Assembly: GCF_021729035.1 (NCBI RefSeq)
Contig: NZ_JAJSAP010000003.1
Coordinates: 124,001 to 188,000 of the forward strand
Source: Microbulbifer sediminum
GTDB lineage: Bacteria > Pseudomonadota > Gammaproteobacteria > Pseudomonadales > Cellvibrionaceae
Direction: 5' to 3'
DNA: 64,000 bases
Shown piece by piece: positions 55,735 through 61,679 of this stretch. The translations under genes were made by a program, and so were the position numbers. Numbering within the stretch: the first letter of the stretch is position 1; every line of letters starts with the position of its first letter. The notes beneath the pieces are model-generated. The model was given only the letters and a program-made list of their open reading frames with translations. It was not told where the DNA came from and made no database searches.

Positions 55735-56112
55735 GCAGGCCCCCGGGCACGAGCGGACGCAGGATCCCCCGGCTGCCACCACGCCCGCCCCCGGTTCCGT
55801 GCAAAGATCGACCAGCCAGTCCCAAATAGCGCTGTCACATAAGGTGAAATGAAGGGCGCGCCAAGCAAATCCCCGATTTGTTGCCATACTTAATTTCACG
55901 GGTTGGCCAATGTTGATATACGCGCAACAGCGCGGCATCGCCGACCCATAAAAAGGAACGTCGCGCGGGACGCAAGACAAAGGCGGGCCGTCGATAAGTC
56001 ACTATCGACGAACAACAGGACGCGCTCGCCGCAGGTTGGGAAGGTATGAACGATCTGGCGCCCGCGTCTCCACGTGACAGACCACCGGGCCCTGCAGCAT
56101 CGCTGAGGTACC
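55735..56112. other. Upstream region of the L,D-transpeptidase array
   Basis: 378 bases without a convincing gene. It contains a small CAAAT/ATTTG hairpin near 55865-55879, a TATACG -10-like element near 55916, and a perfect seven-base inverted repeat at 55990-56009. It probably carries the promoter and a long 5' leader of the first L,D-transpeptidase gene. Confidence 0.4.
55990..56009. repeat. Inverted repeat GTCGATA/TATCGAC
   Basis: Two perfect seven-base arms around a six-base loop (AGTCAC), about 105 bases before the first L,D-transpeptidase start. It could be a protein-binding site or an RNA hairpin in the leader. Confidence 0.5.
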
Positions 56113-58050
56113 ATGTCGTATTTCAACCCTGAGCACCGCACACGCAAGTCTGTACTGCCGCTATTACTGCTTGGCAGCCTGTGCCTTATCGCCCTCTATT
56201 ACGCCTTTACCGCGAACCAGAAAACGGTACCGGTCCTGCCGGAAAACGCCGTGCGACCCCACCTGATTCGCTGGCTGGTTGAAAACCCCGACTCCTGGCC
56301 GGCCCAGGATCCCATCTTCAATCCCGCAGCCGTGCGCCGGATCTATGAGCGCACCGACTACCGGCTGCTCTGGTTCGACAATTACAGCCTCAGCGACACT
56401 GCCAATGACCTGCTCAAGCAGCTCACTGCGTCCAGCTCCGGCAACCCCAGCAGCATGGTGGATTACCGCTATCACCTGGGCTATTTCGACCGCACCCTGC
56501 GCGACACTCCCCAGCGTCTGCAGATGGCCGCCGTGCTCGACGTACTGTTAACTGACGCCTTTGTCTCATTTGCCCAGGATACGCAGCTGGACAAGATGAA
56601 ACCCCGCACCCGCCGGCAGCGCGACATCACCCCGGTGAACCACAGCGAGGGAGGTTTCGTGCTGGTAGGCTATATGTCCGCGCGGCAGGGTAGTGCCACT
56701 GACAGCGGCCGCAAGTACTTCCGCGGCTATGACCGCGGCGCAGAAGTCCGCCGCAGCAGCGGTATCGACCGCTATCGCCACTACACCCGCAGCCGCAATA
56801 TCGACCGCTCGCGCCACTACTCCTACCCCCGACAGGGCGACAGCCGCGCCCGTGGTTCCAGCTCGCGCTTTTCCGCCGGCGGCCTGCCGCCGCGCAGTGG
56901 CCAGCGCGAGTACCAGAACAGCAACGGCCAGCCAAACGTCGGTCGCGTACCGGACAACAGCGAAGGCCCCTACATCGAGGAAAACATACCCTACGGCGGA
57001 GGCGAGCAGGCCCTGCGCGAACAGCTCGCGCTCTACCGCAGCATCGCTGCCAGCGGGCGCTGGCGCCCGATTCCGGCAGGCCCCGCCATGACCATCGGCG
57101 CCAGGCACCCCCATGTCGCCCACCTGCGCAACCTGCTTTCCCTGTACGGGGATTACCGCAGCTATCCCGGCGAGGCCAACAGCAATCAGTTTGACCGGCG
57201 CCTGCACGAGGCAGTGCTGCGCTTCCAGCGTCGCCACGGCCTCAAGGCGGACGGAATCGTCGGTCGCGAGACCCGCAAGCGCCTCAACCTGTCCCCGACT
57301 GCCCGGGCGCATATCATCGAGAAAAACATTCGCCGCCGGCGGGAGCTGCCGGCAACGCTCGGTGACCGGTTTATCCAGGTCAACGTGCCCGCTTATGAAC
57401 TCTACTATGTGGAGGATGACCGCATCCGCCTCTCCATGAACGTGGTGGTGGGTAAGAAGAAACATGCCACCCCGGAAATCAGGACCCGCGTCAGCCGGGT
57501 GGTCTTCAATCCCACCTGGACTGTGCCCCGGAGTATCCTCGTCAACGAGATCCTGCCCAAGGCCCGCGCCAACCCCCAGGGCATGGAGAACATGGGATAC
57601 CGGGTGGTCAGCGGCAGCGGCGAGCACCTGCCCCTGACATCCAAGAACCTGTCCGCCGCGGGTGCTGGCTCCTACCTGATGCGCCAACTGGGCGGTGAGG
57701 ACAATATCCTCGGCCGGGTAAAGTTCGAAATCCCCAATACAGATGATATCTACCTGCACGACACCCGCGCGCGGAGCCTCTTTTCCCTGACCGAGCGGGA
57801 CTACAGCCACGGCTGTATCCGGCTGGAGAAGCCACGCCACCTGGCCGAGGCGCTCCTGCGGCCACAGGGCGACTGGGACCAGTGGCGCATCAACCAGCTC
57901 ACCACCGGCGACGAAACCACCGAGGTGAATATGAAGCAAAACGTGAAGGTCTATGTGACTTACTGGACTGCCTGGGTCGACGGCCAGGGCCTGCTGCACT
58001 TCCGGCCGGATATCTACGGCAAGGACGGGCTGGCAGCCAACCGCTTCTGA
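56113..58050 (+). CDS. L,D-transpeptidase 1 (YcbB-like) with Arg/Ser/Tyr-rich insert
   Basis: 645 residues. A signal-anchor helix (about 14-33) precedes a YcbB-type N-domain (about 40-160). A basic Arg/Ser/Tyr-rich segment (about 165-270) holds a 12-residue imperfect repeat near 217-240. A peptidoglycan-binding domain (about 325-395, FQRRHGLKADGIVGRETRKR) and a YkuD catalytic domain (about 418-625) follow. Catalytic His549 (YLHD) and Cys568 (SHGC) are intact. It should form 3-3 cross-links or attach lipoprotein in the periplasm. It is the largest of three tandem copies. The insert is not expected in E. coli YcbB. Confidence 0.93.
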   Translation: MSYFNPEHRTRKSVLPLLLLGSLCLIALYYAFTANQKTVPVLPENAVRPHLIRWLVENPDSWPAQDPIFNPAAVRRIYERTDYRLLWFDNYSLSDTANDLLKQLTASSSGNPSSMVDYRYHLGYFDRTLRDTPQRLQMAAVLDVLLTDAFVSFAQDTQLDKMKPRTRRQRDITPVNHSEGGFVLVGYMSARQGSATDSGRKYFRGYDRGAEVRRSSGIDRYRHYTRSRNIDRSRHYSYPRQGDSRARGSSSRFSAGGLPPRSGQREYQNSNGQPNVGRVPDNSEGPYIEENIPYGGGEQALREQLALYRSIAASGRWRPIPAGPAMTIGARHPHVAHLRNLLSLYGDYRSYPGEANSNQFDRRLHEAVLRFQRRHGLKADGIVGRETRKRLNLSPTARAHIIEKNIRRRRELPATLGDRFIQVNVPAYELYYVEDDRIRLSMNVVVGKKKHATPEIRTRVSRVVFNPTWTVPRSILVNEILPKARANPQGMENMGYRVVSGSGEHLPLTSKNLSAAGAGSYLMRQLGGEDNILGRVKFEIPNTDDIYLHDTRARSLFSLTERDYSHGCIRLEKPRHLAEALLRPQGDWDQWRINQLTTGDETTEVNMKQNVKVYVTYWTAWVDGQGLLHFRPDIYGKDGLAANRF

Positions 58051-58215
58051 CCCTCCGGGCCCGGCGGAAAGCCCGCCGGGCCGTACATATGCCTTTTTGA
58101 GCGGAGCCGGCCCCGGCGCATTCCCCATAGGTATTGGTTCGGACCCCTACATTAATTATCACTGTGAGCACGGCGTTCAGTCCGCCTGACCGTTTCTGTC
58201 TCACAGGGGTAAGTC

Positions 58216-59451
58216 ATGGGTGCCGACAATCCGCTCCGTTCCCGCACGTTTCCGCCAGTCCGCTACTGCAGTGCCCTGGCGCTCGCAATCGCAGTCAGTC
58301 TCACTGCGCCAATCCCTCTGCTGGCCAGCAACGGGGATACCCCCGCGGCCACTGCCGTCGACAACCTGTTCGACCCGTTTTCCCCTTACGGTCGGCAGCA
58401 TGCGCTGCTGCGCGAAGAGCTTGAGCGTTACCGTGCCCTGGCCAGCGGTGACCACTGGCAACCAATGGACGAGGGCCCGGCACTGGCGCCCGGCTCCCGC
58501 GACCCGAGGGTTACGCAGCTGCGGAGCCTGCTGATGCAGTACGGTGACTACGCACTCGAAGACCACGACGCTCCCGCCCACGCACCGGACGAGTATGACC
58601 CGCGCCTGCAGCAGGCGACACGGCGCTTCCAGCGTCGCCACGGACTTCCGGACAACGGGCTGGTGGACGACGCCACCCGCAGCCACCTGAATGTCGCCCC
58701 GGCCCGGCGGATCGAGACACTGACCGCCAACCTGGTGCGCCTGCGGCAGCTGCCACGGGAACTGGGACCGCGTTTTATCCTGGTGAATATCCCGGATTAC
58801 AGCCTGCGCCTGATGGATGATGACCGGGAGGTGTTCCGCATGCGGGTGGTGGTGGGCAAACCCAAGCACGCCACGCCGCAGCTGGCGACGCGCATGACCC
58901 GGGTGATCTTCAACCCGGTGTGGCGCGTGCCCCAGAACATCGCCGTACGCGAGCTGCTGCCGAAAGGCAGCGCCAACCTCACCGCCAACGGCTACCGGCT
59001 GGTCAACCACCGAGGCCGGGCCGTGCCCTTTACCCGCGGCAATATCGCTGCCATCCGGCGGGGCAAGGTCATGCTGCACCAGAAAGGTGGGCCCGGGAAT
59101 GCCCTGGGCCGGGTCAAGTTTGTCATCCCCAATCGGGAAGCCATTTTCCTGCACGATACCAACAGCAAGCACCTGTTCAAGAAAACTGAGCGCGCCTTCA
59201 GCCACGGCTGTATCCGCCTGGAAAAGCCCTTGGAATTCGCCCGCCTGATGCTGGCGGAACAGAACAACTGGGGAGACCGGAGGATCGAGCACTACCTGAA
59301 CACCAGTCGCACGCGCGGAGTGCCGCTGGAGCAGCCACTGCCGGTATATATCGCCTACTGGACGGCCTGGGTCGATGAGGAAGGGCTGCTGCAGTTCCGC
59401 CGCGATATCTATGAGCGGGACCCGGAGGACGCCGCCCGGGCGGCTGAGTAA
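58216..59451 (+). CDS. L,D-transpeptidase 2
   Basis: 411 residues. A signal peptide (SALALAIAVSLTAPIPLLAS) precedes a peptidoglycan-binding domain (about 90-160, FQRRHGLPDNGLVDDATRSH) and a YkuD domain (about 185-395). Catalytic His313 (FLHD) and Cys332 (FSHGCIRLEKP) are present. It lacks the N-terminal YcbB scaffold and basic insert of copy 1. The C-terminal IAYWTAWVDEEGLLQFRRDIY closely parallels the other two, showing paralogy. It is 165 bases after copy 1 and 3 bases before copy 3. Confidence 0.94.
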   Translation: MGADNPLRSRTFPPVRYCSALALAIAVSLTAPIPLLASNGDTPAATAVDNLFDPFSPYGRQHALLREELERYRALASGDHWQPMDEGPALAPGSRDPRVTQLRSLLMQYGDYALEDHDAPAHAPDEYDPRLQQATRRFQRRHGLPDNGLVDDATRSHLNVAPARRIETLTANLVRLRQLPRELGPRFILVNIPDYSLRLMDDDREVFRMRVVVGKPKHATPQLATRMTRVIFNPVWRVPQNIAVRELLPKGSANLTANGYRLVNHRGRAVPFTRGNIAAIRRGKVMLHQKGGPGNALGRVKFVIPNREAIFLHDTNSKHLFKKTERAFSHGCIRLEKPLEFARLMLAEQNNWGDRRIEHYLNTSRTRGVPLEQPLPVYIAYWTAWVDEEGLLQFRRDIYERDPEDAARAAE

Positions 59452-59454
59452 GCC

Positions 59455-60630
59455 ATGGTCAGCCCCATGCTTTACTGGCGGCGCTGGCTGTGTGGTGTCG
59501 CAGCGATCACCCTCACCGGCGCCCTCGCCGCGAGTGCCATCGCCATCAGCCCCCCGGCAGACGCGAGTCGCGCCGCAGAACAGCTGCGGATGGAAGCGAC
59601 GCGCTACCGCCAGATGCAGGGCCGCTGGCAACCAGTGGATGGAGGCAAAGAACTCAAGCCCGGCGACCGCGACAGCCGTGTTAAACAACTGCGCAGGCTA
59701 CTGCAACTGCTGGGAGACTTCCGGGGCCTGCCCGGGCCCATCACCCTGCTCACCCCCGACACAGCCCGGTTTGACGGCGCGGTGCAATACGCGGTGGAGC
59801 GTTTCCAGCAACGCCATGGGCTCGAGGTCAGTGGTGCCGCTGATACAGCTACGCTGTCCGAACTGGCGGTCAGTCCCACCGTGCGGGCACGCCAGCTGGA
59901 ACTGAATGCCCAGCGCTGGGAGAAGCTGCCGCTGCCGAGTAAGGATCGCTACGTGCTGGTCAATATCCCCGACTATCGGCTGCAACTGATCGAGCGGGGG
60001 CGCGAGGTCCTGGGCATGAGGACGGTAGTGGGCAAGAGCAGCTCCCGCACCCCACCGATCACCAGCCGTATCACCAACGTGGTTTTCAACCCCACCTGGA
60101 CGGTACCGCGCAGCATCCTGCTGACCGACCTGCTACCCAAGGCCCGTAACAACCCCGAGGCCATGCATAACCGCGGCTACCGGGTGGTTTCGTACCGAAG
60201 TGGGGATACCACGACTATTTCCCCCGACAGTATCGACCGGGCCGCACACGGCCACGCCACGCTGAGACAGATCAGCGGTCCCGGCAACACCCTGGGACGG
60301 GTCAAGTTTGTGCTCCCCAACAGGCAATCGATCTACCTGCACGATACCCAGGCCCAGAGCCTGTTCGAGCAGCATCACCGGGCCTTCAGTCACGGCTGCG
60401 TGCGCCTGGAGCATCCGGAGGAACTGGCTTACGCGCTGCTGCGCCGGCAGGGCTGGGACCGCACCCGCATTGCCCAGGTAACCACCGGCACCGAGACGAT
60501 GAATGTTCGCATCAAGAACCCGGCCCGCCTGTTTATCACCTACCTCACGGCCTGGATTGATGATGACGGCCGACTGCAGTTCCGGCGGGATATTTACCAC
60601 CGCGACAAGTCCGGAGCGGACGCTAACTGA
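59455..60630 (+). CDS. L,D-transpeptidase 3
   Basis: 391 residues. It has a short signal-like N-terminus (CGVAAITLTGALAASAIA), a peptidoglycan-binding domain (about 68-140, FQQRHGLEVSGAADTATLSE) and a YkuD domain (about 162-375) with His296 (YLHD) and Cys315 (FSHGCVRLEHP). FNPTWTVPRSIL matches copy 1 more closely than copy 2. It is practically fused to copy 2 by a 3-base gap, so the two are co-transcribed. It probably shares the 3-3 cross-linking role; division of labour is unknown. Confidence 0.94.
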   Translation: MVSPMLYWRRWLCGVAAITLTGALAASAIAISPPADASRAAEQLRMEATRYRQMQGRWQPVDGGKELKPGDRDSRVKQLRRLLQLLGDFRGLPGPITLLTPDTARFDGAVQYAVERFQQRHGLEVSGAADTATLSELAVSPTVRARQLELNAQRWEKLPLPSKDRYVLVNIPDYRLQLIERGREVLGMRTVVGKSSSRTPPITSRITNVVFNPTWTVPRSILLTDLLPKARNNPEAMHNRGYRVVSYRSGDTTTISPDSIDRAAHGHATLRQISGPGNTLGRVKFVLPNRQSIYLHDTQAQSLFEQHHRAFSHGCVRLEHPEELAYALLRRQGWDRTRIAQVTTGTETMNVRIKNPARLFITYLTAWIDDDGRLQFRRDIYHRDKSGADAN

Positions 60631-61001
60631 CCGGCGATCCCGGCTGCAGGCACTGATTTTTCACGTAATCCAGCCAGAGCAGCCCGTCGTCCTACAGCAG
60701 GGGCCAGCTAACACCTTACGGTCACAAAAAAATTATTTTTCAGTGCAAACCGGCGGGATGACAACGCTGTCTCATTTTTTCAGCCACCACCGACCGGGAC
60801 CACCCCCAAGTCCCCCTCACCCCCATAGCCTATTGGAACAAAGTTGCCAAACCTGTTTTACGATCCTTTTGTAATGACCCGTAAAAGGTTTGTAACGGGT
60901 GGTTATTTTTCGTACAGTTCTCCCCGTGCTCGATGGCGCCCCAAGCAACTAGCCCGCAACGGCTGGCAGAGAGGAAGCCAAGAGCGACTGAAGAGAAATG
61001 T
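60631..61001. other. Noncoding stretch upstream of the YcbK-like gene
   Basis: 371 bases with no gene. It has an A7/T5 rich patch near 60725-60742, a pyrimidine-rich run and a large imperfect inverted repeat (60848-60892). The YcbK-like gene therefore likely has its own promoter rather than reading through from copy 3. Confidence 0.45.
60848..60892. repeat. Imperfect inverted repeat upstream of the YcbK-like gene
   Basis: CAAACC-TG-TTTTAC on the left mirrors GTAAAA-GGTTTG on the right: twelve pairs with a two-base bulge around a 19-base loop. A second, smaller ACCCGT/ACGGGT repeat overlaps it (60877-60900). It may be an operator or an attenuator-like hairpin. Confidence 0.6.
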
Positions 61002-61556
61002 ATGACGAGGCGGAAACAGGGTATGAACAATCCATCCAGACGTCGATTCCTGGCAGTTACCTGTGCTACAGCGGCTGCGGTCACTGCCGGACCGACACTC
61101 GCGAAAGTGGGCAACGCCCGCACACTGAAAATGCGCAACCTGCACACCGGAGAGACGTTGAACACCGCCTTCTGGTCGAATGGTGACTACGATCGCAGCG
61201 GCCTGAAGCAGTTCAACCGCCTGTTGCGCGACCATCGCGCTAACGAGGTCACGCGCATGGACCCGGAGCTGTTTGACCTTGTCTACAAGCTGAAGCAGAA
61301 GCTGAACTTCAACGGCACTGTGGAGATCATCTCCGGTTACCGCTCGGCGAAGACCAACGCCATGCTGCGCTCTCGCTCCAAGGGCGTTGCCAAACGCAGC
61401 TACCACACTCGCGGCATGGCGCTCGATATCCGCATGCCGGGTGTGCCCCTGTCCAAGCTGCGCCGCGCGGCACTGGACCTGAAAATGGGCGGTGTGGGTT
61501 ACTATCCCAAGAGTAACTTCGTGCACGTGGACACCGGCCCGGTACGCCGCTGGTAA
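61002..61556 (+). CDS. ycbK: YcbK-like M15 (DUF882) murein peptidase with Tat signal
   Basis: 184 residues starting MTRRKQGMNN; a Tat-type SRRRFLAVTC motif and hydrophobic ATAAAVTAGPTLA segment lie at the N-terminus. An ATG seven codons later is an alternative start. The catalytic part has ISGYRSAKTN, SYHTRGMALDIRM and FVHVDTGPVRRW, giving the His-Asp-His zinc set of the M15/DUF882 family. In E. coli ycbK lies beside ycbB, an L,D-transpeptidase, just as here. It should cleave peptide stems of murein in the periplasm. Confidence 0.93.
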   Translation: MTRRKQGMNNPSRRRFLAVTCATAAAVTAGPTLAKVGNARTLKMRNLHTGETLNTAFWSNGDYDRSGLKQFNRLLRDHRANEVTRMDPELFDLVYKLKQKLNFNGTVEIISGYRSAKTNAMLRSRSKGVAKRSYHTRGMALDIRMPGVPLSKLRRAALDLKMGGVGYYPKSNFVHVDTGPVRRW

Positions 61557-61580
61557 TCCCGAGCACACACAGCCATAAAG

Positions 61581-61606
61581 CAAACCCCGGCCCAGGCCGG
61601 GGTTTG
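61581..61606 (+). terminator. Terminator after the YcbK-like gene
   Basis: CAAACCCCGG/CCGGGGTTTG stem with a CCCAGG loop, followed by TCATTT. It may serve both this gene and the convergent imelysin gene. Confidence 0.8.
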
Positions 61607-61679
61607 TCATTTCTGGGCGGGGCATTTCCAGTGCTGGCCCTGCCCCCTGTCAGCAGCACTAGTCTCCCACCCCAACCGA

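Follow-up and report, generated by a model that had tools for sequence, protein, structure and literature searches.

Three diverged LdtD-type L,D-transpeptidase genes beside mepK form an old, genus-wide array in Microbulbifer, with a conserved leader upstream of the first gene

Why would a bacterium keep three L,D-transpeptidase (LDT) genes side by side, next to a gene for an enzyme that would open the bonds they make? The question is raised by a stretch of 64,000 nucleotides (the window) from Microbulbifer sediminum (contig NZ_JAJSAP010000003.1, positions 124,001 to 188,000 of the forward strand), in which three LdtD/YcbB-like genes, here called copies 1, 2 and 3, are followed by mepK; all features given below lie on the plus strand and are numbered from the first base of the window. 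In E. coli, a single ldtD (ycbB) has mepK (ycbK) as its neighbour; the locus here has three transpeptidase genes instead of one. An earlier interpretation made from the letters alone (the sequence-only reading) had described the trio as a local expansion. Our best explanation, held with a little better than even confidence, is that this is a genus-wide locus for 3-3 cross-links, consisting of three diverged LdtD-type enzymes and MepK, with copy 1 probably under a conserved structured leader. The enzyme family is known; its arrangement here is unusual, old and common to the genus, and the conserved leader 5' of copy 1, which adds to the sequence-only reading, is the most interesting part.

Copy 1 (56113-58050; 645 residues, with His549 and Cys568) encodes an LdtD/YcbB-like transpeptidase with a scaffold, and copies 2 (58216-59451; 411 residues) and 3 (59455-60630; 391 residues) encode LdtD-like transpeptidases without a scaffold match. 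YkuD and PG_binding_1 domains were found by Pfam in all three, with YkuD at 92.6, 90.7 and 94.7 bits for copies 1 to 3 against a cut-off of 23.4 (E-values 2e-25 or better), and the HD and SHGC motifs are intact in each, so that open reading frames (ORFs), Pfam and residue checks all agree with the earlier description of three tandem, catalytically intact enzymes with a shared core. The Scaffold family PF20142 was over its cut-off in copy 1 (residues 73-167, profile positions 2-92 of 139), and the Pfam scan had no match to it in copy 2 or copy 3. In copy 1 the scaffold region (56248-56607, residues 46-165) is followed by a variable insert rich in Arg, Ser and Tyr (56638-57000, residues 176-296). 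This composition of copy 1, the reduction of copies 2 and 3 to PG_binding_1 and YkuD, and the 3 bases between the copy 2 stop and the copy 3 ATG had also been noted before, and ORFs and Pfam confirm them. An N-terminal hydrophobic stretch of copy 1, judged by eye, is a probable membrane helix. The next gene, mepK (61023-61556, start codon picked by eye), is a YcbK homologue and by family a 3-3 cross-link endopeptidase; its product scored 239.6 bits against the curated cut-off of 185 of NCBIfam NF053624, which upholds the YcbK neighbour of the sequence-only reading. None of the three copies reaches the cut-off of 425 of the NCBIfam LdtD equivalog NF007891 (240.8, 236.6 and 246.8 bits), and neither does any protein in the 390 genomes of the order sample. 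Seven YkuD matches were counted across the genome (3.85 Mb, 15 contigs), three in the array and four elsewhere.

Is this a recent duplication in one genome? The survey of relatives and the phylogeny of the three copies, both of which the sequence-only reading had suggested as checks, answer that it is not: the expansion is real, and it is old and spread through the genus, not special to this genome. Among 48 Microbulbifer genomes, that of the window included, 46 have copies 1, 2 and 3 in that order on a single contig, and mepK is downstream of the array in 44 of the 46 stretches. Three LdtD-model matches per genome were likewise counted in 46 of the 48; the others are G007, with two, and G481, with four. 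The four matches of G481, a single-contig genome with an intact leader, are three genes, with a frameshift dividing copy 1 in two (L107). In G007 copy 3 is absent and the order on the contig is copy 1, copy 2, mepK. Elsewhere in the family, 31 genomes had LdtD-like matches, one each in 30 and two in G425. The latter is Microbulbifer sp. NKW57, which belongs to a different GTDB genus within the same family. Among the at least 80 loci listed, three copies were seen in eight Microbulbifer loci and two in NKW57, and the other 71 had one copy each in the available DNA, some of which was ended by contig edges.

In a tree of 66 proteins (including 35 of the 110 loci L146-L255), the array forms a single clade (support 100/99) against 44 other YcbB-like proteins, and the three copies form three separate clades (100/99, 100/99 and 99/96). 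The first split within the array sets apart copy 3 together with the second gene of NKW57 (100/98), while copy 2 (100/99) forms the sister group of copy 1 plus the first NKW57 gene (99/89 and 100/95). An earlier quick tree of 101 of 167 rows gave the same three clades and left the placement of the first NKW57 gene open. G025 and G481 (L107) were excluded from the trees and from the residue counts below, and G007 and NKW57 were counted apart. Since the tree pairs the NKW57 genes with the copy 1 and copy 3 clades, the trio is older than the split from NKW57; on this comparison of sequences, copy 2 was lost in NKW57 and copy 3 in G007. All four outgroup proteins that were scanned for the scaffold have it, and the scaffold was therefore apparently lost separately in copies 2 and 3, an inference that depends on the root. 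Recent amplification was rejected, each copy being orthologous across the genus.

A few loci stand apart. In G025 the array lies across two contigs, with L061 a chimera of copy 1 and copy 3 and L017 the remainder, which may be a misassembly or a recombinant. In G034 (L070) the array is followed by two mepK-like genes in tandem. Tandem pairs are also found elsewhere in the class, for example two adjacent matches on contig C32 of G565. Three single-copy LdtD-like proteins of about 400 residues from family f34 of the order (L135, L136 and L137) are too short for the scaffold, and by length only we judge them a case of parallel scaffold loss.

If the three genes are this old, do they still do the same work? 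One answer would be dosage, with three interchangeable LdtD copies that increase the total capacity for 3-3 cross-linking. Every one of the 45 rows of each copy has the catalytic His, Asp and SHGC (135 of 135 overall), and copies 2 and 3 are tightly spaced, with a median of 12 bases over 46 genomes when the first in-frame start is taken, as such an account would have it. However, the copies have diverged: core identity between copies within a genome is 0.464 (1-2), 0.472 (1-3) and 0.442 (2-3), with a range of 0.397-0.498, against 0.785, 0.690 and 0.678 within the clades of copies 1, 2 and 3 across the genus (45 rows each). The domain make-up differs as well, and residues are fixed by paralogue, so that we regard dosage as quite improbable. 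Division of labour, which the sequence-only reading had also raised, is favoured instead by the three old orthologous clades, by the scaffold being confined to copy 1 and by differences at sites that have been tested functionally.

Two such sites separate the copies. The position of E. coli YcbB Tyr507, to which a role in catalysis is assigned in a review (PMC12729407), is occupied by Tyr in all 45 copy 1 rows, Phe in 42 of 45 copy 2 rows and Phe in 35 of 45 copy 3 rows; in the window, copy 2 follows its clade with Phe and copy 3 has Tyr. Asp337, whose replacement in E. coli abolished YcbB-mediated resistance according to PMC6478713, is Asp in 45, 39 and 1 of the 45 rows of copies 1, 2 and 3, with Asn in the copy 2 and Ser in the copy 3 of the window. 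Two observations temper the picture of three specialized enzymes. Among 28 single-copy relatives, one has Phe at the Tyr507 position and 11 lack Asp at the Asp337 position, so the changes hint at new roles without proving them; and G481 with its split copy 1 and G007 without copy 3 indicate that the complete set is not strictly required. The SHGC motif was also considered as a mark of the array only and was dropped: all 28 single-copy outgroup rows have SSGC, but other YcbB-like proteins have SHGC.

Within copy 1, the scaffold is the most conserved part, with a mean pairwise identity of 0.912 over 45 genomes, compared with 0.812 for YkuD and 0.360 for the insert, which is short in NKW57. In PMC6478713, the scaffold is predicted to mediate interactions with partners. 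The copy 3 model (mean pLDDT, the predicted local distance difference test, of 88.5) matched seven YcbB-type entries with Z scores of 26.9-30.2 over 317-340 residues, which suggests that the remaining YcbB architecture is retained without the scaffold. This LdtD/YcbB-like fold, with a large capping subdomain and the peptidoglycan (PG)-binding arrangement, is that of the copy 3 model. Modelling of copy 1 gave a poor result (mean pLDDT 47.5, from 10 sequences) that was not used, and the relation of copy 1 to YcbB is taken from its sequence.

Another possibility is that one or both of the short copies tether proteins to the peptidoglycan or catalyse the exchange of non-canonical D-amino acids instead of cross-linking. 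Such activities occur in the LDT class, as stated in PMC12729407, and could fit copies without a scaffold match, mostly with Phe at the Tyr507 position and, in copy 3, mostly without Asp at the Asp337 position. The sequence-only reading had suggested lipoprotein anchoring, for which we found no support: the array enzymes are LdtD-like, and no Braun-type lipoprotein of the Pfam family LPP (PF04728) was over the cut-off in the genome, the best hit having 15.6 bits against 29.1, a search that covers the Lpp family only and has other anchored proteins outside its scope. The copy 3 model best fits YcbB-type structures over nearly its whole folded length, and anchoring could fall to the four further YkuD proteins of the genome. 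We therefore think anchoring or exchange by the short copies unlikely. A weak Lpp hit was seen in L256.

What lies upstream of copy 1? A conserved leader of 161 nucleotides (55952-56112), a probable structured 5' untranslated region, directly precedes the gene; the model built from it, R1, also spans the ATG. Its core, GGTTGGGAAGGTATGAACGATC (56034-56055), lies in a block with a mean pairwise identity of 0.893, and the other two blocks have 0.799 and 0.916; by comparison, the distal flank has only 0.346 and the fourfold sites in copy 1 have 0.540. These conservation figures are for 45 genomes, without the chimeric L061, G007, G481 and NKW57, and inclusion of L061 shifts them by at most 0.016. 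A Shine-Dalgarno-like GAGG for copy 1 (56105-56108) is invariant in the 37 rows of alignment A4, which retains 37 of 46 leaders after removal of near-duplicates; R1 was built from 37 leaders. R1 has one strong match in each of the 48 genus genomes, including the diverged G007 with its two genes (E 3e-9). In the genome of the window the next match has an E of 1.16, and G011 and G481 each have one weak additional match (E 0.006 and 0.02). Under stricter filters, there was no match in the 96 other genomes of the family, and NKW57 had none up to an E of 5. In the 390 order genomes, R1 found only the 10 genus members and three weak matches (E 0.0018-0.0041), which is chance level. No Rfam family matched the leader at the gathering score, and a search with a 6-kb stretch returned none there even with E values as high as 5 allowed. 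For nine genus loci and L043, the one hit with an E of up to 1 was isrG, at 20.5 bits against a gathering score of 100.

Could the leader encode a small peptide? Part of the core, GGGAAGGTATG, looks like a ribosome site followed by a start. However, the ATG is missing from several A4 rows, each frame is interrupted in at least 22 of 46 genomes (open in 24 at most) and the leader lengths fall into all three classes modulo 3 (21, 17 and 8), and this explanation was rejected as highly improbable. GGA motifs of the CsrA type are fixed at columns 17 and 93 (37 of 37 rows), but at 4.35 against 3.93 in shuffles they are not enriched, and the candidate was set aside.

The leader is, on comparative grounds, probably a structured RNA that controls copy 1. 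The evidence comes chiefly from helix P2, whose co-varying arms lie at 55982-55988 and 56024-56030. A single P2 pair is seen as AU, CG, GU, GC, UA and UG in different genomes. Over the whole structure, cells with changes on both sides of a pair numbered 24 against a shuffled mean of 9.6, a count reached by none of 500 shuffles, and a realigned set that includes G007 had 22 against 9.2. Pairing was kept in 94.0% of cells, compared with at most 44.7% in slid controls, and four of five covariation measures exceeded nearly all shuffles, with conserved pairing and covariation combined in helix P2 only. In P2 and the inner hairpin, the arms pair better with their own partners than in all 300 partner shuffles. 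The 62-nucleotide P2 segment folds with a mean z of -1.70 relative to shuffles (below -2 in 14 of 47). In P1 and P2, 76 of 518 cells are G-U and 4 are A-C or C-A, an excess that favours RNA of the sense (plus) strand, that is, the mRNA of the array.

An alternative is that the conserved sequence works as DNA, with an overlapping promoter and protein-binding sites. Upstream of the leader, the non-coding block A (55859-55899) is conserved at 0.907 over 45 genomes and is promoter-like, with an extended -10-like TGCCATACT at 55882-55890, and P1 and P4 have 6 invariant pairs among their 14; the folding energy of the whole leader, which is near that of shuffles, also suits this view. Against it, the sequence of P2 varies while its pairing stays, far above the slid controls, the arms of P2 and the inner hairpin outdo every partner shuffle, and G-U cells greatly outnumber A-C and C-A cells. 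A role as DNA only is thus rather unlikely, though we give it about as much weight as anchoring by the short copies.

Several results weigh against a structured leader and limit what can be claimed for it. The number of pairs with changes on both sides is 4, which 209 of 500 shuffles equalled (111 of 500 for the realigned set). Related rows can beat shuffles without any structure, a caveat of the tool itself, and the structure was partly derived from the same alignment, which gives it an advantage over its slid versions. Joint variation is confined to P2 and the inner hairpin; pairing in the 3' helix P4 is no better than in its arm-swapped versions. Folding predicts the outer helix for all 47 leaders, yet 963 of 1880 shuffled segments form it likewise. 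Whole-leader folding is unexceptional, with a mean z of -0.45 over 46 genomes (two below -2), -1.39 in the window and +1.52 in G007. The Shine-Dalgarno site is no less accessible than in shuffles (0.239 against 0.186 unpaired; lower in 22 of 46). With its variable loops included, the whole leader is, at 0.730, no more conserved than the coding sequence of copy 1 at 0.734. Sequestration of the Shine-Dalgarno site or a switch between P4 and P5, to which inspection by eye and the window fold had pointed, is not supported by accessibility or by arm swapping and was dropped. Set against these null results on folding and accessibility, the evidence for P2 leads us to speak of a conserved leader in which one helix is well supported, and not of a demonstrated riboswitch.

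The leader shares with the cis-regulatory leaders and riboswitches of Rfam its place just 5' of a start codon, a conserved core and a co-varying helix; it differs from them in having no family match and in strong matches that are confined to one genus, one per genome. Tentatively, and at rather less than an even chance, it could be a new genus-specific cis-regulatory RNA that responds to an envelope, metabolite or protein signal by turning on the scaffolded enzyme, with distinct roles for the scaffold-less copies. There is a parallel in E. coli, where, according to PMC12729407, the regulation of LdtD is complex and translation of ldtD involves an mRNA structure that is opened by the helicase DeaD. 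Both cases have an ldtD-type gene with a relevant mRNA structure, a likeness drawn from description, and the Microbulbifer leader differs in being conserved in the genus with one co-varying helix. By this analogy only, control through the leader is plausible.

How would the locus work as a whole? We propose that the three LdtD-type transpeptidases would make L,D-cross-links, which MepK would open. Copy 1 has a probable membrane anchor and, because it keeps the YcbB scaffold, probably joins wall synthases in a complex; for E. coli LdtD, such an association has been proposed with PBP1B and PBP5. Copies 2 and 3 would be free periplasmic enzymes, perhaps with other donors or acceptors. An mRNA that bears the leader would give rise to copy 1 and, where transcription reads through, to copies 2 and 3 as well, if the leader is transcribed as we infer, and the leader would probably set the translation or stability of copy 1 in response to some factor.

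The comparison with known enzymes bears on this proposal. E. coli, for which one LdtD (YcbB) is named among the LDTs in PMC12729407, has the PG-binding and YkuD domains of copy 1 and the scaffold that copy 1 matches over part of its profile, and the copy 3 model matches its structure 6ntw with a Z score of 28.6 over 337 residues. The Microbulbifer array differs in its three genes, in copies 2 and 3 without a scaffold match, in scores below the NCBIfam LdtD cut-off and in SHGC where E. coli LdtD has SSGC. It also differs in the PG-binding loop, which in the window copies spans only 11-16 residues from GD[YF] to [FY]D, so that most of the E. coli loop 268-312 is seemingly missing. The best structural matches of copy 3 were V. 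cholerae LdtA (7aj9, 7ajo, 7ajx and 7ajz; Z scores of 28.8-30.2 over 339-340 residues), whose chains have 482-492 resolved residues compared with the 391 residues of copy 3. In the open-licence literature on Microbulbifer, L,D-transpeptidases, riboswitches and peptidoglycan, neither the array nor the leader was found at listing level. What looked like a local duplication thus turns out to be old and common to the genus, and it amounts to a natural dissection of LdtD, in which a scaffolded enzyme and two scaffold-less paralogues are kept together in one locus across the genus; the role of the scaffold can therefore be tested by domain swaps. The leader in turn offers a handle on possible post-transcriptional control of 3-3 cross-linking.

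Further candidate regulatory sequences surround the genes. Block A is, by eye, the probable promoter of copy 1; a sigma-70 scan called nothing there, and TGCCATACTTA is also present 5' of copy 1 in G007 and NKW57 (L106). Just 3' of the copy 1 stop lies a G+C-rich inverted repeat (58058-58082), a possible terminator or attenuator. Within 130 nucleotides after copy 1, 45 of 46 genomes have a perfect inverted repeat of 6 bp or more, a count made without a shuffle control; the window fold of the repeat has a z of only -1.29, and a terminator scan did not call the repeat at 58058-58082. Before copy 2, a segment at about 58110-58215 is partly conserved in the consensus of 46 genomes and could be a promoter or a second leader. 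With this segment and the repeat after copy 1, a separate promoter for copies 2 and 3 is possible.

Upstream of mepK, an alignment of 44 genomes has a conserved palindrome, TGACAACGCTGTC (60759-60771), which we take to be LacI-operator-like. The extended TGACAACGCTGTC motif has 24 sites in the genome with at most one mismatch, against 4 for the reversed pattern, and by this count mepK may belong to a regulon. Another block conserved upstream of the gene, TTTGTAAC..GGTTATTTTTnGTAC (60889-60915), is probably the mepK promoter. The sole match to a CpxR box, at 60871 with one mismatch, is at chance level and was discarded. Finally, a weak match to the Pseudomonas rnk leader (61574-61671; 33.0 bits against a gathering score of 55), with a weaker one on the opposite strand, surrounds a terminator-like hairpin after mepK.

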